Positions 16,101 through 40,132 of a DNA stretch of 51,292 nt are shown in pieces. Source of the DNA: Comamonadaceae bacterium (lineage in GTDB: Bacteria; Pseudomonadota; Gammaproteobacteria; Burkholderiales; Burkholderiaceae_C); contig CANBWK010000011.1 of NCBI GenBank assembly GCA_947373105.1, positions 1-51,292 on the forward strand, written 5' to 3'. The notes under the pieces are model-generated. The model was given only the letters and a program-made list of their open reading frames with translations, searched no databases and was not told the DNA's origin. The position numbers and the translations under genes are program-made. The first letter of the stretch is position 1, and every line of letters starts with the position of its first letter.

Positions 16101-16101
16101 A

Positions 16102-17502: not shown

Positions 17503-17504
17503 GT

Positions 17505-18398
17505 CTATTCAACGTATTTTTTCTCAAATTCCCAGACATCCGGGAAGCCCACCAGTTCGTGCAGCTCTTTCATATCAATCATCGGTACTGGACTGCCCGC
17601 AGTGGTGCCGTGATGGGCTAAGTAATGCAGTGCATTTTTCGTGGCCGCAGCTGTGACTGCCATCACAGCACCAGGCCAAATGGCCAATGAAAATCCCAGC
17701 TCCTTGAGCTGCTTGGCAGATAACTCCGGCGATCTCCCTGTCGGAACCATGTTGGCAATGAGCCATGCGCCGCAGCCTTGCAATTCATCACCAATTCGCT
17801 TGAATTCGTCCAAAGACTCTGGCGACTCTACGAAAATAATGTCGGCACCGGCTTTGGCGAATAATCTGCCGCGATCAATAGCTTCATTTAAACCTAATCC
17901 AGTACGGGCATCGGTTCTTGCAATGATGAGTGTGTCGGAACTCCGCCTCGCAGCGACTGCCACATCAATGCGTTTGATGGCATCTGTTTTTGAAACTACT
18001 TTTCGGTTGGGGGTATGACCACATTTTTTGGGAGATTCCTGGTCTTCCAGTTGTATCGCTTGAACGCCAGCCTCTTCATAACCCCTGACGGTATGTCTGA
18101 TGTTAATAAGACCGCCAAAGCCTGTGTCGGCATCGGCAATGAGAGGACTGCTGATACCGTTTGCAATGGTTCGCGCTCGTCCTTGCATGTCGGTATACCC
18201 AGCTAATCCCGCATCCGGCAGACCCAGATGTGAGGCTGATACGCCGTAGCCAGTCATATACAAAGCATGAAAGCCCATTTGATCTGCGACCTTGGCCGAG
18301 ATCATTTCATAGATGCCCGGCGCTACAACGAAGTCGCCATTTTGAAGCTTCTTTTTAAGCGTTCCTCGTGGGCTTGGCATGGATAATGGTGATGTCAT
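17505..18398 (-). CDS. Isocitrate lyase/PEP mutase superfamily lyase (dimethylmalate- or methylisocitrate-lyase-like)
   Basis: About 297 residues from ATG 18396-18398; a start at 18422 would overlap the TctC stop. The TIM-barrel signatures are APGIYEMISAKVADQ, DADTGFGG (89-96, Mg site), QLEDQ and the catalytic loop KKCGH (124-128), whose Cys marks true C-C lyases of the family. Such enzymes cleave 2-hydroxy/branched diacids to pyruvate or succinate plus a second acid; 2,3-dimethylmalate lyase gives propionate and pyruvate. The gene is followed after two bases by LeuC-like and LeuD-like subunits, the partners expected for hydrating a maleate derivative before cleavage. Methylisocitrate lyase remains possible. 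Confidence 0.88.
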   Translation of the reverse strand: MTSPLSMPSPRGTLKKKLQNGDFVVAPGIYEMISAKVADQMGFHALYMTGYGVSASHLGLPDAGLAGYTDMQGRARTIANGISSPLIADADTGFGGLINIRHTVRGYEEAGVQAIQLEDQESPKKCGHTPNRKVVSKTDAIKRIDVAVAARRSSDTLIIARTDARTGLGLNEAIDRGRLFAKAGADIIFVESPESLDEFKRIGDELQGCGAWLIANMVPTGRSPELSAKQLKELGFSLAIWPGAVMAVTAAATKNALHYLAHHGTTAGSPVPMIDMKELHELVGFPDVWEFEKKYVE

Positions 18399-18411
18399 TT
18401 CGTGTCTTTCT

Positions 18412-19407
18412 TTATTCGGCAACAGCGCCAGAGTCTTTTACAGCTTTGCCCCATTTGGGTACATCAGTCACAAGCATCTGACTGTATGCGGCAGGAGAAG
18501 AAGCTACGACATCTAAGCCTAACTTGGCTAGGCGTTCCTTGACGTCGGGCTGTTGCAATGCAAAAGCAATTTCCGTATTGAGTCTGTTTACAATTTGCGT
18601 TGGAATGCCAGCAGATCCCAGAATGGCAATCCAATTTTCTGCTTCAAATGGAATCCCCGACTCGATGAAGGTGGGTACATCAGGCAGCGCAGCTGAGCGT
18701 TTCGTTGCAGCCAGCCCAATAGCTTTGGCTTTTCCAGATTGAATGTGTGCAATGGATGTGTTGACGCTGACGCTTGTCATTTGGACATCGCCGGCGAGTA
18801 AGGCTTGCATGGCTGGTGCCCCCCCTTTGTAGGGAATGTGAACCATGTCAAGTCCACCTGCAGCTGAGCGGAATAACTCCAGCGCTAGGTGCGAGCCATT
18901 GCCCGTCCCGGCCGATGAAAAAGTGAATTTTCCAGGTTGACTTTTAACCAGCGCAACAAACTCCTTGGGAGTTTTGGCTTGCACCGATGGATGAATCAAG
19001 ATGACCGCCGGAAATGTGACCGCCAGCGTGATGGGGGTGAAGTCTTTGAAGACATCGTATGGAAGTTTGGGGCCATATAAAGCCGGAGCAATGGACTGTG
19101 TGCCATTGTCTGCCACCACCAAGGTGTATCCATCTGGTGCTGATTTGGCTGTGAATGCCACCGCAATGGTGCCGCCTGCGCCTACTTTGTTTTCTACGAT
19201 AACTTGCTGCCCAATTCGTTCACTTAATTTTTGGGCAAGTATTCGACCAAATGCATCAGAGTTTCCTCCTGGTGCATGGGGGATGATGAGTTTGATGGGT
19301 TTTGCAGGGAAGTTCTGCGCATGACTTTGTCCCGGAAAAGCGAGCATTGCAATCGATGTGAGAAGTGCAATAGATCCCAAAATAAAGCGAAGGTTACTGG
19401 AAGTCAT
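18412..19407 (-). CDS. TctC/Bug-family periplasmic binding protein
   Basis: From ATG 19405-19407 the product has 331 residues. A signal peptide (SIALLTSIAMLAFPGQSHA) is followed by NFPAKPIKLIIPHAPGGNSDAFGR, and then FTAKSAPDGYTL, YGPKLPYDVFKDFTPI and VHIPYKGGAPAMQALLAGDV, all standard for the Bug/TctC family that binds carboxylates for tripartite tricarboxylate transporters. No TctA/TctB membrane genes are present. It is the first gene of the lyase-LeuCD-amidohydrolase run, 13 bp before the lyase, so it probably captures that pathway's substrate. Confidence 0.92.
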   Translation of the reverse strand: MTSSNLRFILGSIALLTSIAMLAFPGQSHAQNFPAKPIKLIIPHAPGGNSDAFGRILAQKLSERIGQQVIVENKVGAGGTIAVAFTAKSAPDGYTLVVADNGTQSIAPALYGPKLPYDVFKDFTPITLAVTFPAVILIHPSVQAKTPKEFVALVKSQPGKFTFSSAGTGNGSHLALELFRSAAGGLDMVHIPYKGGAPAMQALLAGDVQMTSVSVNTSIAHIQSGKAKAIGLAATKRSAALPDVPTFIESGIPFEAENWIAILGSAGIPTQIVNRLNTEIAFALQQPDVKERLAKLGLDVVASSPAAYSQMLVTDVPKWGKAVKDSGAVAE

Positions 19408-19574
19408 GTGGCCACTTTTTTGTAAATAATTTGTTGATTCAAAACATAGTATAGAAAAAAAAGACTTTGCATAGAGTGCTGCAATGGTTGCCAGCGATTG
19501 GCGTGAGAAGGGGTGATGCTGCAAGTCAAATTACTCGGGTTTACCCGTGTAAAAATGAGTCAATATTTGAAATT

Positions 19575-20021: not shown

Positions 20022-20187
20022 GATCGTCCTCGCATTGAGAGAACTCATATTTGAATAAAAACCAGCGCCAGTCGATTAGGGTAAACCGCAGTCATTCAGA
20101 CCGAATGCGCATTGCTTAGCAACGCAAGCTTATTTATCATTGGCTTGTAGGTCCTTTAACCCATACTCAGAATTCGCAGAGGTGCTC

Positions 20188-21117
20188 ATGAAAATCATGT
20201 TATTCAATGATGACAGAATTGGAATCATTCAAGGCGAGGGCGTTGTAGATGTCACATCCGTTGTGAGCAATATTCCGCATCACGGTATTGGTGACTTGAT
20301 GAATGGCCTCATCGCTGTATTTGACAAAGTCAGGCCTCTCATAGACAAGGCAGTTGCAACCGGTAAATCGGTGCCCATTTCACAGGTCAAAATTCGTCCG
20401 CCACTTCCAAGGCCCATCAACATTGAGTGCATGGCTGTGAATTACATGGAAGATGGGACGCGCAAGGAACCGGCGCTTATCAATGCATTTCACAAGTCAC
20501 CCAGTTGCATCATCGGTCATGGTGACTCCATGGTCTTGCCCGATATTTCATCTTCTATTTTTGAAGGTGAAGCAGAATTGGCATTGATCATTGGAAAAGG
20601 TGGAAGCTTTATCCCCGCATCAAAAGCAATGGATCATATTTTTGGCTATATGAATTTCATAGATGGGTCGGCCAGAGGTGTACAACCCGAAAACAATTCT
20701 TTTTATCAAATGAAATCACGCGCTACTTTTGCGCCTATCGGCCCCTACATTGTCACTGCCGATGAAGTGAAAGACCCCCAAAAATTACAAGTTAAATTGT
20801 GGGTCAATGGTGTTCTTAAACAAAACTTCAATACGGATGACATGGCGCACAAAATTCCGCGTTGTATTGAATGGGTTTCGAGCATACATGCGCTTGAGCC
20901 AGGCGACATCATTGCAACAGGAACCAATCACCGAGGTTTATCTTCTTTCCAAGATGGAGACAAGGTGGACCTGGAGGTTGAGGGAATGGGGCGTTTAACC
21001 ATTGGAGTCAAAGACGAGTTGAAGCGTACTTGGTCTAGAGAAACCCGATCAGAGCGCGAACAACGCGGCTTAACAGGATTGACCCCCCAATTGACAGGTA
21101 AATACACCAAATCTTGA
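20188..21117 (+). CDS. Fumarylacetoacetate hydrolase (FAH) family protein
   Basis: About 309 residues from ATG 20188, which follows GAGG with five bases of spacing; longer frames upstream lack a ribosome site. The FAH-fold metal ligands are visible as E126 and E128 in IFEGEAELALIIGKGG and D159 in YMNFIDGSARG, followed by MKSRATFAPIGPYIVT and EPGDIIATGTNHRG. Members hydrolyse or decarboxylate acylpyruvate-like ring-cleavage products, or act as oxaloacetate or ureidoglycolate-type lyases. The following cupin and CoA ligase genes lie on the same strand at short spacing, suggesting an operon. Confidence 0.9.
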   Translation: MKIMLFNDDRIGIIQGEGVVDVTSVVSNIPHHGIGDLMNGLIAVFDKVRPLIDKAVATGKSVPISQVKIRPPLPRPINIECMAVNYMEDGTRKEPALINAFHKSPSCIIGHGDSMVLPDISSSIFEGEAELALIIGKGGSFIPASKAMDHIFGYMNFIDGSARGVQPENNSFYQMKSRATFAPIGPYIVTADEVKDPQKLQVKLWVNGVLKQNFNTDDMAHKIPRCIEWVSSIHALEPGDIIATGTNHRGLSSFQDGDKVDLEVEGMGRLTIGVKDELKRTWSRETRSEREQRGLTGLTPQLTGKYTKS

Positions 21118-26565: not shown

Positions 26566-27360
26566 TTAGGAGGCCAAGCATTGCTCAACAGCCCGAGCAG
26601 CAAGTATCGTGATCAGTGCAGCGCGGTATTGGGCCCCGGCATGTATGTCCGACAACATGTCTGACCAAGGCAATTCGACGCCTTCGATCACATCAGGTGA
26701 AAATTTCTGGCTGAGTAACTTCTCAAGTTGAGTGGCCCTGAATGCATATGTCTTGCACCCTGTGACACCCACCCGAACTTCGGCTTTGTAACGTGCAACA
26801 AAAACACCGACCATCGCCAAGCGAGAGGCAGGGTGTTTGAACTTGATGTATGCCGCTTGAAGAGGGCGTTGAAAGCTGACCGATTGAATCAACTCGCCAG
26901 GCTTCAAGCAGGTTTCATACAAGTTGACGAAAAAATTATCAGCTGAAATTGTCCGCTCATTGGTTTGGACTGTTCCGGCCAATGCCAACAACGCTGACGG
27001 GTAGCAAGCCGCTGGATCGGCATAAGCCAGGGAACCACCTAAGGTGCCCATGTTTCGAACCATGGGATCACCGATACCATGCGCCAGTTTAGCGAGTGCT
27101 GGAATGGCTTGTTGTATTTGAACTGAGAGCGCCACCTCCGCATGCCTTGTCATAGCACCCACAGTGACGGCGTTGTCGCTGACAGAGATGCCCTTGAGTT
27201 CCGATAGTTTTGAAATATCCACCAGAGTGGAGGAAGACGTCATACGCAGCTTCATGGCCTGTATTAAGCTTTGCCCTCCTGCTAGAAATTTGGCGTCGCC
27301 TTCAACAGATTTCAAAGCATCTGGTAGTGTTACGGGTTGTTGGTATTTGAGAGCGTACAT
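26566..27360 (-). CDS. Molybdenum hydroxylase medium (FAD) subunit, CoxM-like
   Basis: The 264-residue protein has the FAD-binding signatures AGGQSLIQ (27-34) and TLGGSLAYADPA (106-117) of xanthine-dehydrogenase/CO-dehydrogenase medium subunits, with the usual C-terminal domain. It accepts electrons from the two [2Fe-2S] clusters of the small subunit and passes them to NAD, a quinone or another acceptor. It is the last gene of the L-S-M set, 27 bp after the small subunit, and closes the long minus-strand operon. Confidence 0.92.
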   Translation of the reverse strand: MYALKYQQPVTLPDALKSVEGDAKFLAGGQSLIQAMKLRMTSSSTLVDISKLSELKGISVSDNAVTVGAMTRHAEVALSVQIQQAIPALAKLAHGIGDPMVRNMGTLGGSLAYADPAACYPSALLALAGTVQTNERTISADNFFVNLYETCLKPGELIQSVSFQRPLQAAYIKFKHPASRLAMVGVFVARYKAEVRVGVTGCKTYAFRATQLEKLLSQKFSPDVIEGVELPWSDMLSDIHAGAQYRAALITILAARAVEQCLAS

Positions 27361-27387
27361 GTTTTGACCTTAATCGCCGTGACGGTG

Positions 27388-27852
27388 TTAAATGCCTGCC
27401 GCAGCCTTGACTGATTTGACGATATTTTCATAGCCTGTGCAGCGGCAAATATTGCCTTCAAGGCCTTCTCGAATTTGCTCGTCAGTGGGCTTGGGGAAAT
27501 GTTTGAGTAATTGAATGGTCGTCATCACCATGCCGGGAGTGCAATAGCCGCATTGCAAGCCATGGCATTCACGAAATGCGTTTTGTACCGGATGTAATTC
27601 ATCCCCTTGAGCCAAGCCTTCAATGGTAGTAACTTCTTGTCCATTGGCTTGGAGAGCCAAGATCGAACATGATTTGACTGCAAGGCCATTCAAGTGAACG
27701 GTGCAGCAGCCGCATTGCGCTGTGTCGCATCCGACATGGGTGCCTGTCAGTTTCAAGTGATCCCTGATCAGTTGCACCAGTAAAGTTCGGGGGTCAATCT
27801 GTGTGACAACAGTGTTGCCATTGACTTTAAGCTGAATGGTTTGGGTAGTCAT
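27388..27852 (-). CDS. Molybdenum hydroxylase small ([2Fe-2S]) subunit, CoxS-like
   Basis: From ATG 27850-27852 the product has 154 residues, typical for the family. The plant-ferredoxin-type cluster is ligated by C42, C47, C50 and C62 ([16 protein letters not shown]). The second, helical-domain cluster uses C101, C104, C136 and C138 ([17 protein letters not shown]). It relays electrons from the Mo centre to the FAD subunit. It begins 14 bases after the large-subunit stop; a longer frame upstream overlaps that gene and lacks family similarity. Confidence 0.94.
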
Positions 27853-27866
27853 GTTTGTTTTAACGC

Positions 27867-30215
27867 TTATGAAGATAAGGTTGTCTTTTCTTTGGCTTGA
27901 CGTAAAGCTTGCCAAATCTTTTCCGAAGTGGCCGGCATATCGATCGTTTTGACACCCGCCGGAGCCAGAGCATCTATAACGGCATTCATAATGGCAGGAA
28001 TTGCACCTACAGTGCCCGCTTCTCCCGCGCCTTTAGCGCCCATGGGGTTGAGCAGGGTAGGTACGGCATTGTTCTCAACTCGAATATGGGGCAAGTCACT
28101 TGCACGCGGCATTGCGTAATCCATGAAACTACCGGTGAGCAATTGACCCGATTCGCGCTCATAAACGACTTGCTCCATCAATGCTTGGCCGAGGCCTTGG
28201 GCGACACCGCCGTGAATCTGACCCTTTACACCGGCGGGATTGATCATGGTGCCGACGTCGTCGACCACCAAATACTCGACCACCTTGACTTCACCGGTTT
28301 GGGCATCAATCTCAACTTCACAGACATGGCAGCCATTTGGCCAAGTGTCTGCGGCAGGAACAAATGTGGCAGTTTCGTAGAAACCACCCTCAAATCCGGC
28401 GGGTAGTTTCATGGCCAAAAAAGCTGTTTTTGCAACATCTTTGATGGTTACTTTTTTATCTGTACCGACCACCTCAAAGACGCCTTTATTGAATTGAATG
28501 TCGTCAACGGAGGCCTCCAACATATGCGCGGCTATTTTCTTGCCCTTTTCAATGATTCGATCTGCTGCTTTCCAAAGCGCAGTGCCGCCCACGACTGTGG
28601 AGCGAGAACCATTTGTGCCCATGCCAAAAGCCACGAGGTCGGTGTCGCCATCAATGAACTTAACCTGGCCAGGATCAATACCAAGTCGTTCGTTAACGAT
28701 TTGTTTGTAAAGTGTTTCGTGTCCCTGACCTTGTGCTTTGGTACCCATTAAAACAGTGGCACTTCCACTGGGATTGAATCGAATTTCAGCAAATTCATGT
28801 TGATTCGGGGAGGCGGCTCGCTCAATGGCGTTGGCTATGCCTATACCGCGCAACTTGCCACGGCTTAATGCTTCTTTTCGGCGTTCTTCAAAACTTTCGT
28901 AATTGGCGCTTTTCAATGCGATCTGCATTCCACGGACAAAGTCGCCGCAGTCATACTTGGCCCCAAAGGGATTGAGGTAGGGCATCGCGGTGGGTTTGAT
29001 CAAATTGATCTCACGTATCCGTACGCGGTCTATGTTGAGCTCACGAGCTGCATCGTCGAGTAAACGTTCCATCACATAAATGGACTCTGGTCGACCTGCA
29101 CCGCGATAAGGTGCGGTGCTGTTTGTATTTGACATGAGAACAGTCACATGCACGTGCGCTGCCGCTATATCGTAAACACCCGAAAGCGTGTGGACATTGA
29201 CAAAGGTTGAAAGCAGATTTCTGTCAGACGAAATGTAGGCGCCCACATTGGCCAGAGTTTTCACGCGCAAACCCAAAATCCGGCCTTCAGCATCTAAAGC
29301 AATTTCAGCTTCGGAAATATTGTCACGCGCATGCTCATCGGCCAAAATGGCTTCGCTGCGGTCACATGTCCATTTCACAGGTCGGCCTAATTTGCGTGCA
29401 GCCCATGGCATGAGTCTGTGCTCTGGATATTGCCAGCCTTTGGTGCCAAAGCCTCCTCCCACATCGTTGGCAATAACGCGAATACGATGTTCTGGAATTT
29501 TGAAAATATTCTCAGCCAAAGCATTGCGAACTCTATGAGGGTATTGAACATCAGCCCAAATGGTATAGCGCTCATCGCCTTCGTCGTACTTGGCTAGCAC
29601 GCCACGTGGTTGCATGTAGTGGGCGTACACCCGGCTGATTACATAACGGCGCTTCACAATATGTGCCGCTTTGGAAAAGGCTTCTTCAGCAGCCTTGGCA
29701 TTTCCAGCTTCAAATATATGAGAAATATTGTCAGGACACTCTTCCCAAACTGCGGGTGCGCCTGGCAGGGCGGCTTGCGCTGTGTCTGTAACTGAAGGCA
29801 AGGGTTCGTAATCAATGTCTATCAATTCGGCAGCATCTTTGGCCTGCAAAAGATTTTCTGCTATCACCAACGCCACAGGATCGCCAACATACCTGACAAA
29901 AGATTTTGACAAGCCCTGGTGTTGCCTTGTAAACATGGGAGAACCATCCGGACGCTTGCGAGGCAAGTTAACCTTCATGGTTCCCAACCCATCACGAGCT
30001 ACATCTTCACCGGTATAAATTGCAAGAACACCAGGTGCTTTCAAGGCTTGTTCAAGATTGATGTTTCGAATTCGGGCATTGGAATGAGGTGAGCGAACCA
30101 TCAATGCGTGTGCTTGCCCTAGTTGGTTGATGTCGTCAACAAAACAACCCTTGCCCCGTAATAGCCTGGGGTCCTCGAACCTGGAAACCGATTGACCAAT
30201 TCCATAATTTGTCAT
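27867..30215 (-). CDS. Molybdenum hydroxylase large subunit (xanthine dehydrogenase/CoxL type II family)
   Basis: The 782-residue protein carries the Mo-cofactor motifs GGGFGTKG (253-260) and GAKGAGEAG with the catalytic glutamate at about 732. The active-site loop reads PYRGAGR (369-375). That is the form II pattern (A/P-YRGAGR); true CO dehydrogenases have AYxCSFR with the Cu-binding cysteine. So it is probably a hydroxylase of an aldehyde, N-heterocycle or aromatic CoA ester, not a CODH. The gene follows the VOC protein and Liv transporter genes on the same strand and precedes the S and M subunits. Substrate unknown. Confidence 0.93.
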
Positions 30216-30256
30216 TTTGACTTTTTTCCTTCAAAATTCACCGAAGTCGTAGTGGT

Positions 30257-31468
30257 TTAACCTAATGGCCCTTGGAAAACTTGGTCCACATAAGTATCAG
30301 AAAGTGCATCGAGCGTTTCCGGCCAAGGTTGCTGAATGTTCCTTCGTTGTTCAGGTGGTCGGACTCTGCCATCCCATCCTATTTGCTCCATATGATAGTA
30401 GAGTTGAATGCAATGACCTTCAGGGTCTTGGATGTGAGCGCAGCATTCAATTCCCGGATTCAATTCAGCAGGCAATTCAATGAATTTAACGTCGTGCTTT
30501 TTGAGCCATTCGACCGCATCTCGCAATTGTTTGTAGCTGCCTAGTTGCATGCCCATAGAGACGCAACTGGTATGGGAAGAAAGTCCCAATACATCTCGCA
30601 TCGACTTGGGATAAAGTTTTAAGCTGTGGTGATCGTTGCCATGACGCATAAAAACGCACCGATGACCTTTCCATTCCACAACCTCAGTCGTTACAAAACC
30701 CATCACCTGTTGGTAAAACTCTTCTGACTCGGAGACATCATTGACAAACAGTCCTGCAGGTCCAATTTTGGTGACTTTGAATGGCCGTGGCAGCAATACC
30801 CCGCCAACATTGAATGGACTTTCATCGCACAGATCATGAATTTGATAGCCCGATGAAATGTCAACTCCACGCTGAGTAGCTTGTTGCCTTTCTGTCAAAT
30901 CTGATATTTGAGGCAAAGGTGCCGTCTCCATGAACCGTCGATCGTACAAGCTGTCAGGCTTGGAGCGACCCAACAAACCAATTTGCTCCATTCCATAATA
31001 AAGTTCAACAGTATGGCCATCAAGATCTCTCACATAAACATGCCAATTGCTTCCTGGCATATCTCTACCACTTCGGCGTATTTCAACGCCGCGTTTGTCA
31101 AAATATTTAACTGCATTGATCACCTCTTCCAGCGTTCCTACTTGAAAAGTCAGTTGGGATAATGTGATGTCTTTAGATCCTGCATCATCACCAAACATGG
31201 CGCCCAAGGAGTGGTGTGCCAATAGAAAAGAATGGTGATCTGAGTTGTTAGTCATGAAAAACAGTCGATCGTCCTCCATGTTTGAGGCCAAGTCTGGCAG
31301 CAGTTTGCCCAATCTTGTTTCATCAGTGAGCAAAAAGCCTAATTTACGGCCGTAAAAATCAAGCCCTGTATCCAGCTTGTGCACATTGAAGCCAAAGTGA
31401 CCAAGACGCCGTATTTTGAAAGGTCGTTGATAACGAATACCACCAACATCGTATGTTTCTTTGTTCAT
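30257..31468 (-). CDS. Two-domain VOC-superfamily protein (extradiol-dioxygenase/glyoxalase fold)
   Basis: The 403-residue protein has two tandem VOC domains. Domain 1 starts at RLGHFGFNV (His), contains SDHHSFLL, and ends in GHTVELYYGMEQIG (Glu). Domain 2 starts at KIGPAGLFV, with Pro/Ala where a ligand His is expected, and ends GHCIQLYYHMEQIG, with Gln for the ligand Glu. The repeats of YxMEQIG show an internal duplication. In classical type I extradiol dioxygenases the C-terminal domain holds Fe(II) via His-His-Glu; here domain 2 has lost the triad and domain 1 keeps two of three. Ring cleavage is therefore plausible but not established. It lies between livF and the Mo-hydroxylase. Confidence 0.82.
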   Translation of the reverse strand: MNKETYDVGGIRYQRPFKIRRLGHFGFNVHKLDTGLDFYGRKLGFLLTDETRLGKLLPDLASNMEDDRLFFMTNNSDHHSFLLAHHSLGAMFGDDAGSKDITLSQLTFQVGTLEEVINAVKYFDKRGVEIRRSGRDMPGSNWHVYVRDLDGHTVELYYGMEQIGLLGRSKPDSLYDRRFMETAPLPQISDLTERQQATQRGVDISSGYQIHDLCDESPFNVGGVLLPRPFKVTKIGPAGLFVNDVSESEEFYQQVMGFVTTEVVEWKGHRCVFMRHGNDHHSLKLYPKSMRDVLGLSSHTSCVSMGMQLGSYKQLRDAVEWLKKHDVKFIELPAELNPGIECCAHIQDPEGHCIQLYYHMEQIGWDGRVRPPEQRRNIQQPWPETLDALSDTYVDQVFQGPLG

Positions 31469-31512
31469 GCTGTCTCCTTATGGGTTCAAGTGTTGCGCAT
31501 TTTTTTGCGTAA

Positions 31513-32217
31513 TTACAAGCCAAGATATGCCTTTTGAATGTGGTCTTGTGCGAGGAGTTCTGAGGGCTCGCCCGACGCAACAATGTGGCCATGCTCCAGA
31601 ACATAAGCACTGTCAGCGATGTTCATGGATTGACGTACATTTTGTTCAACCAGCAACACAGAGACGCCTTCTAAGCGTATATCTCGAATGATATCGAACA
31701 CGTTATTCACAATCAGTGGTGCCAAACCCAATGAGGGTTCGTCAAACAGCATGAGTCGCGGGCGCGCCATGAGGGCGCGACCAATGGCGACCATTTGTTG
31801 TTGTCCACCAGACAATTCGCCGGCAAGTTGATTGCGCTTTTGATTCAAAATTGGGAAACGCTGGTACACATCACGCAAGCTTTCATCTCGAAGTTCTCTG
31901 GCAGCAAGTCGGTAACAACCCATCTCCAGATTTTCTTCAACTGTCATGCCAACAAACAAACGACGGCCTTCGGGAATGATGGCAATCCCGTGGTCGCAAT
32001 ATTGGTAGGAGGGCACGTTGGATAAATCTGTTCCGAGCATTTGCACGTTTCCTGAACGGCTGGGTAAAATTCCCGCGATCGCATTGATCATGGTACTTTT
32101 ACCTGCGCCATTTGGACCTATTACGGTCACGATGGTGCCTTCCGCTACTTCCAATGAAATATCCCAAATTGCCGTAGCATCGCCATATCCTACAAATAGA
32201 TTTCGAACTTGAAGCAT
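31513..32217 (-). CDS. livF: ABC transporter ATPase, LivF type
   Basis: The 234-residue protein has Walker A GPNGAGKST (38-46 counted from the alternative TTG start at 32229), the signature LSGGQQQ and Walker B LMLFDEPSLGLAP. It matches LivF of branched-chain amino-acid/amide ABC importers. I chose ATG 32215-32217, one base after the LivM-LivG stop. It pairs with the LivG half of the fused gene to power uptake of the ligand bound by the LivK-like protein. Confidence 0.92.
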   Translation of the reverse strand: MLQVRNLFVGYGDATAIWDISLEVAEGTIVTVIGPNGAGKSTMINAIAGILPSRSGNVQMLGTDLSNVPSYQYCDHGIAIIPEGRRLFVGMTVEENLEMGCYRLAARELRDESLRDVYQRFPILNQKRNQLAGELSGGQQQMVAIGRALMARPRLMLFDEPSLGLAPLIVNNVFDIIRDIRLEGVSVLLVEQNVRQSMNIADSAYVLEHGHIVASGEPSELLAQDHIQKAYLGL

Positions 32218-32218
32218 T

Positions 32219-34003
32219 TCATTGACCAAAGTAAATGGTTTTCACCTGAGGGTCATGCATGACCTGTTCGGGTAGGCCCGTCATTAAAACTTTGCCCTCA
32301 TTCATTACTGCTATGCGATCTGACAGCTGCACCACAGCACGCATCAGATGCTCAACAAAAACAATAGTGGTACCTTGCGCTCGAATTTGACGTACGAGTC
32401 GGATTGCCGTGTCTACTTCGGTGGGATTCAATCCTGACATGACTTCATCGAGCAGCAATACGCGGGGTTTAGTCACTAAAGCACGTGCCAATTCAAGTAC
32501 TTTTCTTTCGCGTAAATTCAAATCAATGGGCAAGACATGAGCGCGCTCTTGCAGGCCACAAAACTCAAGCCAATAATTCGCTTTATCGTTTGCTTCACTC
32601 GCCTTAATGCCTCCAAATAGAGCGCATAATTCCACATTTTCGAGTGCTGTCATATGGGCAAAGGGGCGCGGAATTTGGTAGGTTCTGGCCAGGCCACGCT
32701 GTACAGTCTCATGAGCCGGCAACCCACTGATGAGTACCCCATCAAGTTCGATAGAGCCGCTGTTAAGTGCGAAATGGCCTGAAATCATATTCATCAATGT
32801 GGTTTTTCCGCAGCCATTGGGTCCAATCAAACCCAAAATCTCACCCTCATAAACTTGCAGAGTGGCGCCCGCCAACGCTTGAACACCGCCAAATAATTTA
32901 TGCACATCTTGAATCTCAAGAATGACTTTTTGTTCTTGAGCTACTTTGGGCGTACCTTTTTCAGAAATGACTGAGTCATTCATAGGATGAGTTAAATCAT
33001 CTCCATGGACTGATCGTGCCCCTTCAATTGCGGCATCAGGGCTGGTTTGACGTCGTTTGAGCCAATGCAGAAATGTAGGCACAATCCCCTCTGGTAGCCA
33101 GAGTACCGCAATAATCAAAAATGCGGCTACCACGGCTCGTCCCAAGATGGTTTGCCCAGAGCTGGCCAATCCGAACAAAGCGACAGTGATTAATGTTGCG
33201 CCAAAGGCGGGCCCTAACCAATGACGCGCTCCACCCAGAACACTCATCAAAATAACACTCAAGGGCACTGCAATTCCAAAGGTCTCTGCTACCGTCAAAA
33301 AGCCAACGTAGATGGCATGAACGCCACCCACTGCGCCAGCAATACCCGATGACAGCGCAATCGCCATCATTTTGTATCGGTAGGTCGGGACCCCTTTGGC
33401 CTCTGCGACATCTTCATCGTCGTGTATGGCAAATAAGCCCTTGCCAAATTTTGACTTCGAGACCCACCAGGCAATGGCCAAAGAACCCATGCACATGAAT
33501 AAACCTAGCATGTAGATAGATCCACTTTGAGACTCAACGATTTTAGGCGGTGGGACTGCCGACAAAAACACGCCCGATCCACCGTCAATAGGCGTATTTA
33601 AAATAACTGTCGCCAAAATGAAGGTGACAGCCAAGGTCATCAAGGCAAATAATTCGCCGCGCAGACGGGGTAAACGAAAAACCAATGCACCCACACCGCA
33701 ACCTAGGCTCGCAGCCACCAAAGCCGCTACTGGAATAGTGGCCAAATAAGGCCATCCAAATTTCGCGGCCAAGGTGGCACTTGTATACATGCCTGCACCA
33801 AGGTAGGCCGCATGCCCTAAGCTGAAGTAGCCAGCAAATCCAGATAAAAGAGTCCAACTTGTAGCCAAGGACACCCAATAGAAGACGATATAAAAAAATG
33901 AATCATAAAAAGCCGGCAGTCCCAAAAAAGGAAAGAAAGCCATGGCTATAGAAATGACGGCCAAGACAACCGGCACTTGGAAACGATGTTGAGTCATAGC
34001 CAT
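32219..34003 (-). CDS. Fused LivM permease-LivG ATPase
   Basis: A single 594-residue chain. Residues 1-310 are the multi-helix LivM permease, including SLGHAAYLGAG and the GLGxA-like coupling region around HDDEDVAEAKGV. A polar linker of about 45 residues follows, then LivG (about 360-594) with Walker A GPNGCGKTT (394-402) and Walker B VLLLDE. The usual ABC signature is replaced by LNLRERK (495-501), a variant found in some LivG proteins. The gene overlaps livH by ten bases and is followed after one base by livF. Fusion of LivM and LivG occurs in other proteobacteria. Confidence 0.93.
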   Translation of the reverse strand: MAMTQHRFQVPVVLAVISIAMAFFPFLGLPAFYDSFFYIVFYWVSLATSWTLLSGFAGYFSLGHAAYLGAGMYTSATLAAKFGWPYLATIPVAALVAASLGCGVGALVFRLPRLRGELFALMTLAVTFILATVILNTPIDGGSGVFLSAVPPPKIVESQSGSIYMLGLFMCMGSLAIAWWVSKSKFGKGLFAIHDDEDVAEAKGVPTYRYKMMAIALSSGIAGAVGGVHAIYVGFLTVAETFGIAVPLSVILMSVLGGARHWLGPAFGATLITVALFGLASSGQTILGRAVVAAFLIIAVLWLPEGIVPTFLHWLKRRQTSPDAAIEGARSVHGDDLTHPMNDSVISEKGTPKVAQEQKVILEIQDVHKLFGGVQALAGATLQVYEGEILGLIGPNGCGKTTLMNMISGHFALNSGSIELDGVLISGLPAHETVQRGLARTYQIPRPFAHMTALENVELCALFGGIKASEANDKANYWLEFCGLQERAHVLPIDLNLRERKVLELARALVTKPRVLLLDEVMSGLNPTEVDTAIRLVRQIRAQGTTIVFVEHLMRAVVQLSDRIAVMNEGKVLMTGLPEQVMHDPQVKTIYFGQ

Positions 34004-34845
34004 TTAGGCTGCCAAATTAAAACAATAATCAAGAGTGAAAAAGACACCATTGGGGCCCAGGCAGGATTAAAAACGGCCATGGCCAGTCCTTCACAAGCGC
34101 CAATGGCGACGCCAGCAATCAACGCGCCTAAAGGATTGCCCAAACGTCCAATGATGACCACTGCAAAGATAACGCCTAACCAAGACCATATTTGCGAAGG
34201 CGATAAAGTGGTGATCAGTGCAATGAATACGCCTGCCACGCCTGCATAAGCAGAACAAATGCCTGACAAAATATAGGATTGGCGTGCATGGTTAACACCA
34301 AATGCGGCCGCTATTTCAGGGTCCTGAGCGCTGGCCCGAAGGGCCTTTCCAATATAGGTTTTGTTCAGCCACAACCAAGTTAATCCTGATAAAACCATTG
34401 CAGTTAAACAGGCCAAGGTTTCAAGCAGTGGAATGTAAATAGGACCTACTTGGTAAGAAAGTGTCCCCCATGGGGATTCAAACCTGCGAAAGTCCGCTGT
34501 CCAAAACCATTGAATTAAAGTCTCTAAAAGTACGGCCACGCCAAAAGTGACCAGCAGAGAACCAAACTCGTTAACTTTGAACTTCTTGAAAACCCAATGC
34601 AGTCCAACACCGAACAGGAAGAAGCTAGGGGCAATAAATACCAGTGAAACTCCAGGTCCGAAGTTATATTCAGTTCCTAACTGATAGGTGATGTAGGCGC
34701 CTAAAACAGCCAGTGCAAAGTGCGATAGATTGACAAGTCGCAAAAGTCCCCAAGACAAGCTGAGGCCCATACCCATCAAGCCGTAAAGCCCCCCAGCCAG
34801 CAGACCCGAAATCAGGGCCTGCGTTAGCAATGTCATACTTGGCAT
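33994..34845 (-). CDS. livH: ABC transporter permease, LivH type
   Basis: The 283-residue integral membrane protein has about eight hydrophobic segments and the LivH hallmarks GLYGLMGMGLSLSWGLLRLVNLSHF in outline, followed by ALRASAQDPEIAAAFGVN, the ATPase-coupling loop. Together with the LivM half of the neighbouring fusion it forms the channel of a branched-chain amide/aromatic-acid ABC importer. Its 3' end overlaps the fused gene by ten bases, so translation is coupled. Confidence 0.92.
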   Translation of the reverse strand: MPSMTLLTQALISGLLAGGLYGLMGMGLSLSWGLLRLVNLSHFALAVLGAYITYQLGTEYNFGPGVSLVFIAPSFFLFGVGLHWVFKKFKVNEFGSLLVTFGVAVLLETLIQWFWTADFRRFESPWGTLSYQVGPIYIPLLETLACLTAMVLSGLTWLWLNKTYIGKALRASAQDPEIAAAFGVNHARQSYILSGICSAYAGVAGVFIALITTLSPSQIWSWLGVIFAVVIIGRLGNPLGALIAGVAIGACEGLAMAVFNPAWAPMVSFSLLIIVLIWQPKWL

Positions 34846-34878
34846 ATTGAGTGCAAACAGAATTGCTTAGTCGGGTAA

Positions 34879-36096
34879 TTATTGGGTGAGGATAGGTCCG
34901 CCTGCTACATCTTTTGGCCATACCACCACCCACTTACCATTCTGTGCTTGTTTGACTAACATGCGGGCAGGGCCATGATTGAAGGGGCCATTGAAACTGA
35001 TGGGCCCCATTAATGTTTCGACTGTATTCTTTTTGAGCCAAGCCGCCAACACTTTGTCATCCAGGCTCTTCGTGGCTTCTACTGCTTTTGTCAACAAGTA
35101 AAAGACGTTATAGGTACCCGCGGCTTGGCTGTCCAGATTCGTATAAGGAACGCCTGCTTTTACTGCACGCGCACGGTACATGGGTGAAAGTTTTTCAACG
35201 CCAATCCTTGTTGAAAAAGGGGGGTGGTCTTCAAAAAAAGTCTGCGCAAGCGCATTTTTTGCTTCGGGTGATGCCAGCAAGGGCCCTGGTGCAGGGTAGA
35301 GATAATAGTGAAGTTTAGGCGAGTAATTTAATTTTTTAAGCGCTTCAAGCAATTGATTGCCTTCAAGCCCCAATGCGCCTACCCATAGAAAATCGACGTT
35401 TGCATCCTTGATGCGGGCAGCGATTGAAGCGAAATCACGGGTGCCAAATTCATATTCAAGGTACAAAGGAACAGACAGGCCGCGCTGCTTTCCGACTTCC
35501 CGCATGCCTTCGGCAATGAACTGTGCAGAAGGAAACTTGCTGGTCACAACAGCCATGGATTTAGGGGGTTGAGGCAAACTGGCGACGCAATCAAGTATGA
35601 CCCCGGGATAATCAACGCCAGGGTTCGGGCCAAATGGCGACGCTGGAAATTGCATATCGTAGGTGGCCAGCTTAGGAATGCCCATGCTGCTTTGAATCAT
35701 GATTTTTCCGTAGCGCTGAGCGACACCCATGGCGGCCAAAATCGAATTGGTCGCATAAGGTCCAACAATCAAATCAACTTTATCAACCGTGATGAGTTTT
35801 TCGTAAAGGCTGCGAGTGACTTCAGGTTTGGATTGGTCATCTAATAGGACCCACTCAACGGGTCTTCCAAGTAGTCCGGGGCCGCTGTTCAGGATGTCAA
35901 CAAATGTTTCGCCCGCAATTTTGTGCAAAAGGGCGGTTTGTGCCAATGGCCCGGTCAATGAAAGGGTTCCCCCAATTCGAATGGGTTTTCCGGAAGGCGC
36001 GGCATGCAGGGACCCCATGCCCGTGCTAATCAGTACGCCACCGGCAATGGTATTCATCACCATGCGTCTATTGGATGAAATCCGTTTTTGACTCAT
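34879..36096 (-). CDS. Liv-type periplasmic binding protein
   Basis: About 405 residues from ATG 36094-36096, which has AGGAG six bases upstream. The N-terminus (SSNRRMVMNTIAGGVLISTGMGSLHAA) is an export signal with a twin-arginine-like pair. The mature start PIRIGGTLSLTGPLAQTAL and the segment LIVGPYATNSILAAMGVAQRYG are typical of LivK-family type 1 binding proteins. It is the first gene of the transporter/VOC/Mo-hydroxylase operon and diverges from the GntR regulator. The ligand is probably the hydroxylase substrate (inference). Confidence 0.92.
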   Translation of the reverse strand: MSQKRISSNRRMVMNTIAGGVLISTGMGSLHAAPSGKPIRIGGTLSLTGPLAQTALLHKIAGETFVDILNSGPGLLGRPVEWVLLDDQSKPEVTRSLYEKLITVDKVDLIVGPYATNSILAAMGVAQRYGKIMIQSSMGIPKLATYDMQFPASPFGPNPGVDYPGVILDCVASLPQPPKSMAVVTSKFPSAQFIAEGMREVGKQRGLSVPLYLEYEFGTRDFASIAARIKDANVDFLWVGALGLEGNQLLEALKKLNYSPKLHYYLYPAPGPLLASPEAKNALAQTFFEDHPPFSTRIGVEKLSPMYRARAVKAGVPYTNLDSQAAGTYNVFYLLTKAVEATKSLDDKVLAAWLKKNTVETLMGPISFNGPFNHGPARMLVKQAQNGKWVVVWPKDVAGGPILTQ

Positions 36097-36193
36097 TTTT
36101 GTCTCCTGGTTGGATGATTCTCTTAACCCATGCCTTCGAGGCTTCATTTTATTTTGAGTCAAGTATGGACAAGCTTTGAGAGTTTGTAAAGAA

Positions 36194-36258
36194 TTTTCAA
36201 AATTATTGTCTATTTTTCAAAAATATTAATCTTTTCAAAGAGATGTATACTTTTCAAA
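36194..36258. promoter_or_regulatory. Four spaced TTTTCAAA repeats in the divergent promoter region
   Basis: TTTTCAAA occurs at 36194-36201, 36214-36221, 36232-36239 and 36251-36258, spaced 20, 18 and 19 bases start to start, that is near two helical turns. They fill the space between the LivK-like gene and the GntR/FCD gene, and the last copy touches the regulator's second possible ATG (36258). Regular phasing suggests same-face protein binding, most simply the adjacent GntR regulator controlling both directions (inference). Confidence 0.5.
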
Positions 36259-36956
36259 TGGCCAAGATTGGAACCGCAAAAACACTCGCATCGAACATCT
36301 ATCAGCGAATTCGTTCAGATATTTTGTGCGGGAGATTGGCAGTAGGCCAGCGTTTGAAACTGGCCAATATGGCTGCTGATTACGGAGTCTCCCTCAATCT
36401 CGTGCGCGAAGCATTGACACTTTTAGCCAGTGAGAAATTGGTTAAATCCCAGCCCCAACAAGGCTTTGCCGTCACCTCGATGACTTCTGCTGAATTACAT
36501 GACTTGACTCAGGTTCGAATTGCCATAGAAAGTCTGGCATTGGCCAAGTCTATTGAACTGGGTGGCCTTGAATGGGAGGCTGAGTTGCTTTCAGCGCATC
36601 ACAGGTTGGCTAACACACCCGTCAAAATGGACCCGCAAGGTCTGATTTTGAATGAAGCTTATGTGGAAGCCCACTCGGTTTTTCATGCTGCACTGATCGG
36701 CGCTTGTGGCAGTGCCTTGCTGATGGAAATGCGCCAATCGCTTCATGATGCCTCTGAGTTATACAGGCGCTTGGCTTACCTTAAGCAACGTGGTGTGAAA
36801 GACACGGGCAAAGAGCACAAAAAATTAATGGAAGCAGCAATCTCGCGAAATGTAGCTAGCGCTACCGCTATGTTGACAAAGCATTTTGAAGATACAACCC
36901 GTATTTGTATGGAGGTCGGTTTGACCGATCCTGTTGATTTGCAAGAAGCCGCTTAA
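36243..36956 (+). CDS. GntR-family transcriptional regulator (FadR/FCD subfamily)
   Basis: The 237-residue protein has an N-terminal winged helix-turn-helix (IYQRIRSDILCGRLAVGQRL through VSLNLVREALTLLASEKLV). It is followed by an all-helical FCD effector domain with the usual metal/ligand histidines (HSVFHAALIGACG, LTKHFEDT). Such regulators usually repress catabolic operons and are released by an organic acid. It diverges from the Liv/VOC/Mo-hydroxylase operon and precedes an SDR gene by 38 bp on its own strand. The start may be ATG 36243 or 36258; neither has a strong ribosome site. Confidence 0.9.
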   Translation: MYTFQMAKIGTAKTLASNIYQRIRSDILCGRLAVGQRLKLANMAADYGVSLNLVREALTLLASEKLVKSQPQQGFAVTSMTSAELHDLTQVRIAIESLALAKSIELGGLEWEAELLSAHHRLANTPVKMDPQGLILNEAYVEAHSVFHAALIGACGSALLMEMRQSLHDASELYRRLAYLKQRGVKDTGKEHKKLMEAAISRNVASATAMLTKHFEDTTRICMEVGLTDPVDLQEAA

Positions 36957-36994: not shown

Positions 36995-37774
36995 ATGGAT
37001 CTCGGAATTTCTGGCCGAAAGGCAATAATTTGTGCGTCAACGCAAGGCTTGGGAAAGGCTTGCGCCACCTCTTTAGCACTTGAAGGTTGTATCGTTTACA
37101 TCAATGGCCGTCACGCTGAACGTGCTGAGCAAGTGGCCCAAGAAATCGCGCGAGAGACAGGTGGGCTGGTTTATGGTGTAGGCGCTGATATCACGACTGA
37201 AGCGGGTCGGGCTGCGCTCATTGCCGCGTGCCCAGAGCCTGACATTTTGGTGAACAACAATGCGGGTCCACCCCCTGGAAAGTTAGCAGATTGGCATCAC
37301 GACTCCTGGATACAAGCGTTGGAATCCAATATGCTTGCACCGGCGCTTCTCATTCGTGCCGTTGTTCCTGGCATGCGCGCGCGCAAATTTGGCCGCATCA
37401 TCAACATCACTTCTGCGATGGTCAAGTCACCTCGTCCACAAATGGCGTTGTCGACTGGAGCACGGGCGGGGTTGACTGCTTTTTCAAAGTCACTCTCTCT
37501 GGAAGTAGCTGTTGATAACGTCACCATTAACAGCCTACTTCCCGAGCGTATTGACACAGATCGTCAAAGATTTATGGCCGAGAAAATGATGAAAGAGCAA
37601 AGCATCACCATGCAAGAAGCACGTGATCAAATCGCCCAATCTATTGCTGCCAAAAGATTTGGCACACCTAAAGAATTTGGCGATGCCTGTGCCTACCTGT
37701 GCAGTGCCCAAGCCAGCTTTATATCGGGACAGAACCTGCAGCTGGATGGCGGCTCATATCACGGCTTAATTTAA
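36995..37774 (+). CDS. SDR-family oxidoreductase lacking the Tyr-Lys catalytic pair
   Basis: The 259-residue protein is a Rossmann-fold short-chain dehydrogenase. CASTQGLG (13-20) stands in the place of TGxxxGIG, LVNNNAG is present, and DGGSYHG lies at the C-terminus. The catalytic region keeps Ser139 (INITSA) but reads LSTGARAGL at 151-159 where YxxxK is expected, so neither Tyr nor Lys is at its normal site. Similar variants exist in Burkholderiales and may still bind NAD(P) or catalyse different chemistry. GGAG precedes the start; it is co-directional with the GntR gene. Confidence 0.88.
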   Translation: MDLGISGRKAIICASTQGLGKACATSLALEGCIVYINGRHAERAEQVAQEIARETGGLVYGVGADITTEAGRAALIAACPEPDILVNNNAGPPPGKLADWHHDSWIQALESNMLAPALLIRAVVPGMRARKFGRIINITSAMVKSPRPQMALSTGARAGLTAFSKSLSLEVAVDNVTINSLLPERIDTDRQRFMAEKMMKEQSITMQEARDQIAQSIAAKRFGTPKEFGDACAYLCSAQASFISGQNLQLDGGSYHGLI

Positions 37775-37922: not shown

Positions 37923-38384
37923 TCAGGATTTTGGACTTGAGAAAAGCGGGTGAATATTGCTGTTGATCGTATTGAAAATTTCGGGACTTTCATCAATTTG
38001 AAAAGTGATACCGATATGACGTTGATTGAAAATTTTCTCGAAATGTAATTGGGTTGCAGCAGTCAATGCGTTGCCCACTTTCTTGTGTGTTTCGCTAGAT
38101 CGACCTTTTCCCATTCTGACATTGAGGTAAACGAAGGCGTAGTCCCCTGGATCTCCAGATGCTGCACCAAGGTGCGTATTGGCTGCACGACCCGCAGCAC
38201 CGCCATCAGCTATTGCGAAATGCGGGGCAGGAAATGCCAACACGCGAGTCCCACCTTTTGGGAAAACGGATTTGTTTTCTTCGTCAGTAATGGTCAGCAT
38301 GGTATCGGCTAAGTTGCGACAAAGCACTGACATATTTGTTTCTCGTTCGAGATTTGCTGTGTAAAAAATAACCATGTGTGGCAT
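37923..38384 (-). CDS. 5-carboxymethyl-2-hydroxymuconate isomerase family protein (CHMI/HpaF-like)
   Basis: About 153 residues from ATG 38382-38384 (AAGGAG seven bases upstream). It begins MPHMVIFYTANLE, so removal of Met exposes the N-terminal proline used as catalytic base in the tautomerase fold. FPKGGTRVLAFPAPHFAIADG, MGKGRSSETHKKVGNALTAA and the overall length match CHMI/HpaF more than the 60-70-residue 4-oxalocrotonate tautomerases. It would isomerise a hydroxymuconate or oxo-acid ring-cleavage product. It stands between two SDR genes on the opposite strand. Confidence 0.8.
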   Translation of the reverse strand: MPHMVIFYTANLERETNMSVLCRNLADTMLTITDEENKSVFPKGGTRVLAFPAPHFAIADGGAAGRAANTHLGAASGDPGDYAFVYLNVRMGKGRSSETHKKVGNALTAATQLHFEKIFNQRHIGITFQIDESPEIFNTINSNIHPLFSSPKS

Positions 38385-38450
38385 GAGATCTCCTTTGTTG
38401 TAAGCTATTAAAGTAAAGTTAATTATCATTGAATTTCAAGGATCAGGGTT

Positions 38451-39157: not shown

Positions 39158-40132
39158 TTACTCCGCTTTCACGTCGGCGGCTTTGATAACCTTGGCCCAT
39201 TTGACGATTTCTTCGTCCAAGAATTTTCCGGCTTGTTCAGGTGTGCTGCCTACAGACTCAATGCCCAGAGCCTCAAAACGTGCTTTCAAGTCGGGCGATC
39301 GAATAGCTTTGGCAGTTTCCAGGGAAAGGCGATTGACAATGTCCCTTGGTGTGGCAGCGGGCGCAAGAAACAAGACCCACGTCGAGCCTTCAATGGCGGG
39401 CCCACCCGATTCGACAATGGTGGGGACTTCAGCCGCTCCAGGGATGCGCTTGTTTGAAAATACAGCAATAGGTTTGATCTTTCCGCTGCGAACGTGCGGC
39501 ATCATGGCGCTGGCTGTGTCGGTCAAGACTTGCAGACTACCGCCCATTAAGTCACTCAATGCGGGTGCGGTCCCCTTGTAGGGAACGTGAACCATGTCAG
39601 CGCCTGTGACTTGCTTGAACAGCTCCTGTGTCAAATGCGCTGCAGCCCCCACGCCAGATGATCCAAAGGCCACTTTGCCCGGATTGGCCTTGGAGTAAGC
39701 CACGAGCTCCTTGATATCTTTAATGGGTAAATTATTATTGACCACCATCACCAAGGGTGCGATGCCGACCAATGAGACGGGGGCAAAACTTTTCACCACG
39801 TCATAAGGCAATCGGCCGGCATAAAGGGTTGCGTTGGCCGCATGCGCACCAATGACGGTTAAAAAAGTATAGCCATCAGGCGCTGCACGGGCCGCCAAGT
39901 CGGCGCCCAGGATCGAGTTGGCGCCCGGTTTGTTTTCAATGACGATGTTCCAGCCTGTTTGCTCCTGGACTTTTTGAACCACCATGCGCGTTGCATTGTC
40001 GGTGATGCCGCCGGGGGTGTAAGGAATGATCCACTTGATGGGTTTGTTGGGCCAAGCCTGGGTCAAGCCTGAAAGAGGGAAGCCTAAAACCAAGGCGATG
40101 GAAAGGGTCTTGAGAAGAGTCAAAGTACGCAT
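39158..40132 (-). CDS. TctC/Bug-family periplasmic binding protein
   Basis: This intact 324-residue TctC protein has a signal peptide (LSIALVLGFPLSGLTQA) followed by WPNKPIKWIIPYTPGGITDNATR, then LAARAAPDGYTFL, LPYDVVKSFAPVSLVG and MVHVPYKGTAPALSDLMGG. It binds a carboxylate in the periplasm. No TctA/TctB is linked. It lies 39 bp downstream of the SRPBCC gene on the same strand, at the end of the amidohydrolase-SRPBCC run. Confidence 0.93.
   Translation of the reverse strand: MRTLTLLKTLSIALVLGFPLSGLTQAWPNKPIKWIIPYTPGGITDNATRMVVQKVQEQTGWNIVIENKPGANSILGADLAARAAPDGYTFLTVIGAHAANATLYAGRLPYDVVKSFAPVSLVGIAPLVMVVNNNLPIKDIKELVAYSKANPGKVAFGSSGVGAAAHLTQELFKQVTGADMVHVPYKGTAPALSDLMGGSLQVLTDTASAMMPHVRSGKIKPIAVFSNKRIPGAAEVPTIVESGGPAIEGSTWVLFLAPAATPRDIVNRLSLETAKAIRSPDLKARFEALGIESVGSTPEQAGKFLDEEIVKWAKVIKAADVKAE

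Follow-up and report, generated by a model that had tools for sequence, protein, structure and literature searches.

Gene organization of the locus

The window considered here is the whole 51,292-nucleotide stretch of contig CANBWK010000011.1 from a Comamonadaceae bacterium (assembly GCA_947373105.1). Eight genes on its minus strand, running from 36096 down to 26566 with LivK first and M last, encode a Liv-type ABC importer, a two-domain protein of the VOC family and the large (L), small (S) and medium (M) subunits of a molybdenum (Mo) hydroxylase. Distantly related bacteria have inherited the gene block as a unit. The reading that we favor, quite plausible although a little short of an even chance, is that of a co-inherited catabolic unit for import, Mo-dependent oxidation as the first chemical step, ring cleavage by the VOC protein and a step catalyzed by an FAH-family protein, under a GntR/FCD regulator.

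The open reading frames (ORFs) and Pfam matches, which lie far above chance for all eight proteins, bear out the first-pass annotation, which had described exactly this series of minus-strand genes with short gaps and a divergent GntR regulator facing them; its combination of importer, form II-like Mo-hydroxylase and ring-cleavage fold in a single set also holds. The intergenic gaps, in order from LivK to M, are 33, -10, -11, 44, 41, 14 and 27 bases. The longest ORF of LivK is 34879-36162, and the ATG at 36096 chosen in that annotation is a plausible start. The longest ORF of S is 27388-27915, with an in-frame ATG at 27852, chosen by eye, that sits 14 bases past the stop of L. The regulator has an ORF of 36243-36956, in which the second ATG, at 36258, is the start given in the annotation. 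The features are collected in Table 1.

Table 1. Coordinates of the gene block, its control region and associated genes
Feature	Position	Strand	Evidence
LivK-type periplasmic binding protein	34879..36096	-	Peripla_BP_6 4.2e-38; 77% identity in Variovorax L010
LivH permease	33994..34845	-	BPD_transp_2 1.9e-30
LivM-LivG permease-ATPase fusion, 594 aa	32219..34003	-	BPD_transp_2 1.3e-30 (residues 36-299), ABC_tran 4.2e-24 (379-521)
LivF ATPase	31513..32229	-	ABC_tran 1.2e-29; NCBIfam LivF model 239 bits, cut-off 441
Two-domain VOC protein, 403 aa, candidate ring-cleavage dioxygenase	30257..31468	-	Glyoxalase 9.4e-23, 2 stretches
Mo-hydroxylase large subunit L	27867..30215	-	MoCoBD_1 1.4e-72, MoCoBD_2 8.2e-86
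Mo-hydroxylase small [2Fe-2S] subunit S	27388..27852	-	Fer2_2 1.4e-33, Fer2 5.1e-6
Mo-hydroxylase medium FAD subunit M	26566..27360	-	FAD_binding_5 4.1e-40
Divergent control region	36097..36257	.	TTTTCAAA boxes, AAGTATACA, promoter-like TTTACA-17-CATACT for LivK at 36190-36162
GntR/FCD regulator, divergent	36258..36956	+	GntR 1.9e-16, FCD 1.5e-19; 68% in L010, same place
Short-chain dehydrogenase (SDR)	36995..37774	+	adh_short_C2 6.9e-38
FAH-family protein, possible downstream partner away from operon	20140..21117	+	FAA_hydrolase (Pfam) 1e-48

The SDR is 81% identical to a gene beside the same regulator in a Variovorax locus (L010) and 68% identical to a gene inside the operon of locus L020. 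On these matches the SDR behind the regulator belongs to the system, which makes the unit wider than the eight genes and their regulator. A CHMI-family (HpaF-like) gene at 37923-38429, on the minus strand, adjoins the SDR.

Conservation and co-inheritance

Genome contigs were scanned with a VOC alignment of six rows, which gave at least 431 candidates; the best 80 loci from named genomes were used, and 27 window proteins were compared by tblastn with 89 loci (numbered L010 and so on). The genes were tallied on the 80 loci when they lay on the same strand with at least 50% identity, LivK-LivF within 6.5 kb upstream and L within 2.5 kb downstream of VOC. The whole LivK-LivH-LivMG-LivF-VOC-L block was present in 28 of the 80 loci, part of it in 8 and none of it in 44. 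Six of the eight partial carriers end at a near contig end, while 31 of the 44 loci lacking the block have at least 5.5 kb of upstream and 2.5 kb of downstream sequence. The VOC protein is 57-71% identical to that of the window in carriers and 45-57% in the other loci, and the LivM-LivG fusion is matched over its full length in relatives. The carriers include plasmid pVarWS11_iso of Variovorax sp. WS11 (L010), Reyranella, Enhydrobacter and other, mostly alphaproteobacterial, assemblies.

In a VOC tree of 85 rows, built by a quick method, the 37 carriers including the window fall on one side of a single branch, and none of 500 shuffles clustered them as closely, a result that near-copies favor. 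The pairwise distances of LivK, LivH, LivMG, LivF, VOC and L correlate with r of 0.92-0.98 (28-29 rows), and for each of the 15 protein pairs none of 500 permutations reached the observed value. The importer, the VOC protein and L are the steady core of the unit. Absence of this linkage from other genomes had been named in the first-pass annotation as grounds for giving up the operon; the comparison was run, and the whole and partial carriers, their single branch and their co-divergence left the proposal standing. That the neighbors are unrelated genes brought together by chance is very improbable. The VOC gene was not found in any of 35 same-genus genomes searched, and the block is not conserved within the genus, which speaks for chance; the conserved order, the single tree branch and the co-divergence speak against it, and this explanation was rejected.

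In the family around a Reyranella, 44 of 75 genomes have a VOC of the window type. At a threshold of 1e-100 it was found in 13 of 399 genomes of the window's own order, the window's genome included, and the other twelve have 44-48% identity. Among 60 relatives it was found in three, the full-length matches being two order-mates with 45-46% identity. The operon is thus widespread among Reyranella-type bacteria but uncommon in the order of the window, a distribution that suggests transfer. G+C content was discarded as a test for foreign DNA: composition says little, because the operon genes measured (0.45-0.51) overlap the genome samples (0.48-0.57, n=6), and the distribution says more.

The VOC protein

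The N-terminal half of the VOC protein has the motifs LGHFGFNV, DHHS and VELYYG, which hold H24, H79 and E155. These residues, together with H78 and P237, are invariant in all 85 rows of the alignment. The alignment places a predicted 2-His-1-Glu triad in the N-terminal half, and in the C-terminal half Pro237 stands at the place of the first metal-ligand His. A structure model based on 58 rows has a pLDDT of 90.9 and a pTM of 0.91. In a Foldseek search with this model, the listed 50 of 776 matches are all extradiol dioxygenases (BphC, C23O, HPCD and their kin), with E values of 9e-15 to 1.5e-12, TM scores of 0.50-0.56 by query length and rmsd of 4.5-8.8. The large rmsd hints at a different arrangement of the domains. 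Among 27 solved chains matched by sequence, 22 are two-domain proteins (about 290 residues or more), many of them chains of one enzyme; in 19 of these the pairing is crosswise, the N-terminal half matching a C-domain or the C-terminal half an N-domain, and in three (3b59, 3vb0 and 6l3w) the C-terminal half pairs with a C-domain.

PcpA-type enzymes take one metal ligand from the N-terminal domain, and the VOC fold serves many reactions. With the type I two-domain extradiol dioxygenases (BphC, catechol 2,3-dioxygenase and HPCD) the protein shares the two VOC domains, the H-H-E triad and the fold matches, but the metal is bound in the C-terminal half in those enzymes and the triad is in the N-terminal half here. 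It may work like a type I extradiol dioxygenase, yet should not be filed as a classical member. Catalysis by the N-terminal half would be unusual, since characterized two-domain extradiol enzymes bind the metal in the C-terminal half, and a passage in PMC6880040 considers metal binding and catalysis unlikely in their N-terminal domains. With at least 431 family candidates, the N-half triad makes a clear prediction on how such an enzyme can work.

Alternatively, the protein could be another kind of VOC enzyme, an isomerase, a lyase or a detoxifying transferase, in a unit that oxidizes some other compound. The versatility of the fold, weak matches to FosB and lactoylglutathione lyase, and a triad in the half opposite to that of characterized two-domain extradiol enzymes all speak for such an assignment, which we nevertheless regard as quite unlikely, given that the best structure matches among those listed are extradiol dioxygenases, that the H-H-E triad is in place and that, of the 43 loci outside the operon group, 10 have an FAH gene next to VOC.

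Two VOC relatives lie near distant Mo-hydroxylase genes, one on a Leisingera plasmid (L006; L 31% identical) together with CoxG, FAH and a TRAP transporter, and the other in L087 (L 35%, about 7 kb away). By these neighborhoods, the pairing of VOC and Mo-hydroxylase may have arisen more than once.

The Mo-hydroxylase

The form II set is complete, with an L subunit carrying MoCoBD domains, an S subunit with two [2Fe-2S] domains and an M subunit with an FAD domain. Form II CoxL-like proteins have the motif AYRGAGR, and form I CO dehydrogenases have AYXCSFR. The window L and all 35 related L proteins carry APYRGAGR, so that the A of the form II motif is replaced by P (PYRGAGR), whereas the paralogous loci compared have DAYRGAGR in seven of seven cases. 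KGAGE is present in the window L with its Glu at residue 732. The motif KGxGE, whose Glu is the catalytic residue, is found in 31 of the 35 related proteins; the four without a match are probably cut L genes (L016, L024, L042 and L045). The window L is at most 45% identical, over long matches, to other L proteins of the same genome.

Behind the CO dehydrogenases, L finds its best solved matches in quinoline 2-oxidoreductase (442 bits) and 6-hydroxypseudooxynicotine dehydrogenase (436 bits), followed by 4zoh (345 bits); the scores against 1sij (131 bits) and PaoC (116 bits) are far lower. With the first two enzymes, both CoxL-like form II Mo-hydroxylases, the operon protein shares the L/S/M composition, the KGxGE Glu and the lack of the CO-dehydrogenase motif, and differs by APYRGAGR. 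A CO dehydrogenase identity was ruled out by APYRGAGR in place of AYXCSFR, in spite of the top scores. The CoxE-like VWA protein and AAA ATPase pair is known from Mo-hydroxylase maturation; genes for such a pair are located at 2670-4969 on the minus strand, about 22 kb from the operon.

The Liv importer

By Pfam the Liv/HAAT set is complete, with a binding protein, two permeases and two ATPases. LivK is 59-77% identical over 26 rows, in all of which Pro268 is invariant. In LIVBP of E. coli, Glu226 contacts the α-ammonium group of the ligand. Uptake of branched-chain amino acids is thought unlikely, as Pro268 aligns with this acidic residue, albeit in a weak alignment (63 bits). The LivK model has a pLDDT of 68.9 and its fold search matches amino-acid, aromatic-acid and urea binders alike, and for this reason no ligand is named. 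The substrate could be sought directly through the binding protein.

Variable members of the unit

An operon-type FAH gene (at least 50% identity) is present in 27 of the 35 L-bearing loci, and in the Variovorax copy it lies between L and S. Six of the eight loci without it have less than 3.4 kb after VOC, whereas L017 and L030 have more and still lack the gene. The FAH-family protein encoded at 20140 in the window is 61.6% identical to the second FAH of L036 and 41-42% identical to FAH stretches upstream of VOC in the Chloroflexi loci L073, L079 and L085. Outside the operon group, an FAH gene lies within 2 kb of VOC in all five plasmid or order-mate loci, the search profile having held the L005 gene itself.

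One S-bearing place outside the operon was taken from each of eight carrier genomes; six of these places contain a complete S-L-M set, and contig ends cut the other two. As S and M are rarely linked to the operon and S-L-M sets occur elsewhere in the genome, the Reyranella-type L looks orphaned and may borrow its S and M partners. In 12 loci (L011-L015, L018, L019, L021, L023, L025, L035 and L039), where L has no linked S and M, L is followed by a LigB-type gene; that of L013 matches Pfam LigB at 9.7e-24. Since this type of extradiol dioxygenase gene joins VOC there, these operons would hold two possible ring-opening enzymes. In 31 of 36 carrier loci, the stretch between LivF and VOC contains a weak GntR-like match (28-32%).

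Control region

Four TTTTCAAA boxes at 36194, 36214, 36232 and 36251, the last ending at 36258, are spaced by 18-20 bases, and the window has 15 in all, a number reached by none of 100 shuffles. The intergenic region of the L010 locus contains both TTTCAAA copies of that locus, spaced by 19 bases, and AAGTATACA and TTCTTTACA are identical in the control regions of the window and of Variovorax. These shared elements fit one regulated promoter, and the GntR protein would control the unit. Promoter and terminator scans were at chance level overall.

Proposed pathway and its alternatives

From this set of genes we infer a substrate class, an order of steps and ring cleavage itself. The Liv-type importer would take up one compound; this is probably an aromatic or N-heteroaromatic that carries a carboxyl group and lacks an α-amino group. 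L-S-M would oxidize it, most likely by ring hydroxylation, and the SDR would probably provide a further redox step toward a vicinal diol. The VOC protein, as an extradiol-type dioxygenase with an N-half metal site predicted by alignment, would then open the ring, and an FAH-family hydrolase, here presumably supplied from elsewhere in the cell, would act on the cleavage product. The Mo step is placed first because the nearest solved relatives of L other than CO dehydrogenases are N-heterocycle hydroxylases.

Several observations weigh against this reading. The operon-type FAH is missing from the window, the best match in its genome being 34% identical, and S and M are linked to L in just three of the 35 L-bearing loci (L010, L017 and L020), although some contigs end early. 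The first-pass annotation had spoken of a self-contained route, which is too strong, because most relatives with enough sequence hold the operon FAH. An FAH gene lies within 2 kb of VOC in just 5 of the 38 other loci outside the operon group, for which no control window could be placed, and in 4 of 31 operon-group loci, where it is farther away because L intervenes. The highest scores of L against solved chains are those of CO dehydrogenases (560 bits for the CoxL chain 8uem, then 460 and 426), and among NCBIfam models glyceraldehyde dehydrogenase subunits score best for L, S and M, though none reaches its cut-off; this would suit an aldehyde-oxidizing role. Two loci, L030 and L043, have VOC-L with no Liv genes in the 10 kb upstream. 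The branch that unites the carriers has an SH-aLRT of 84, which is modest and below the 95 mark, and the carriers are mostly near relatives; because 33 of the 37 rows form one Reyranella-type group, outside which lie the window with L010, L017, and L020, the count represents about four deep lineages. In the control region, the two TTTCAAA copies of L010 are reached by 10 of 100 shuffles and the promoter-like matches do not exceed what shuffles give.

The glyceraldehyde dehydrogenase models also bear on a different order of events, in which the VOC protein acts first on an imported catechol-type acid, the Mo-enzyme then oxidizes the resulting semialdehyde in place of the NAD-dependent aldehyde dehydrogenase HpaE, and HpaG-like FAH proteins follow. 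The order VOC-L-FAH mirrors the dioxygenase, dehydrogenase and isomerase/decarboxylase of the homoprotocatechuate (Hpa) meta pathway, to which the window or its relatives show weak likeness through HpaG-, HpaH-, HpaF- and HpaD-like genes. The best model for the FAH of L036 is a general FAH family (207 bits against a cut-off of 444), with a likeness to HpaG-C at 183 bits (cut-off 276); the LigB-type gene of the 12 loci resembles HpaD_Fe (160 bits, cut-off 316), the window FAH proteins at 20140 and 10374 resemble HpaG-C and DmpE/HpaH below cut-off, and the window CHMI gene matches Pfam CHMI at 1.4e-30. Aldehyde dehydrogenase genes (PF00171, E of 1e-20 or lower, seven genomes) are absent from the contigs of the window and L020; the nearest one is about 11 kb past M in Variovorax, and in the genomes of L017, L023, L025 and L036 its distance from VOC is about 73-373 kb. 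The presence of HpaD/F/G/H-like proteins and the fact that few aldehyde dehydrogenase genes lie close by favor this order; we nevertheless consider it doubtful, although a real contender. All the Hpa-like NCBIfam scores fall below the curated cut-offs, the CHMI gene has no NCBIfam match at 1e-15 and no match at 1e-8 among the 89 loci, PaoC-type aldehyde oxidoreductases score lower against L than N-heterocycle hydroxylases do, and no fitting paper, judged by title, on a Mo-enzyme as semialdehyde oxidase was found in the openly licensed PMC literature.

A bolder combination is that the VOC proteins form a new group of two-domain extradiol dioxygenases, acting from the N-terminal domain with the domain order swapped, alongside a Mo-hydroxylase that replaces the NAD-dependent semialdehyde dehydrogenase. 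This is unlikely, but if true it would amount to a meta-cleavage pathway of a new make.

Relation to known systems

The homoprotocatechuate pathway has an HpaE-type aldehyde dehydrogenase, whereas the window contig has no PF00171 match at 1e-20 and has the Mo-hydroxylase and Liv importer instead. CfdE, a VOC-family enzyme of carbofuran breakdown in Novosphingobium KN65.2, is assigned catechol ring cleavage in passages of PMC4498121 and PMC8292978. A VOC 43% identical to that of the window is encoded in a catabolic cluster on plasmid pCFD-2-4 of the carbofuran strain Sphingobium CFD-2, next to FAH, alpha/beta hydrolase, enoyl-CoA hydratase and CoA-transferase genes; unlike the window operon, the annotated genes of that stretch include no Liv importer or Mo-hydroxylase. 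The gene combination was not found described in the openly licensed PMC literature, which does not show its absence in print, and a term search of the main text of the Variovorax WS11 isoprene paper (PMC9804861), as far as that text was covered, returned just "branched-chain" in other contexts.

Each of the protein families is known; what is new is that they are combined and inherited as a single unit, together with the N-half triad and the motif of L. An importer, a Mo-enzyme and a candidate ring-cleavage enzyme travel together, including on the Variovorax plasmid.

Surrounding genes

The stretch from 5475 to 44605 is largely catabolic in look, with three AMP-binding enzymes, a gamma-glutamyltranspeptidase, a VanA-like Rieske oxygenase, two amidohydrolases and a second LivK-type gene. 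Four genes for TctC-type solute receptors, one of them short, are on the minus strand (9260-9778, 18412-19524, 39158-40132 and 47811-48809); neither TctA nor TctB was among the window proteins scanned. At 15465-18422, also on the minus strand, aconitase C-terminal-like and aconitase-like genes stand beside a gene of the PEP mutase/isocitrate lyase family, an arrangement that presumably recalls dimethylmaleate hydratase and dimethylmalate lyase.

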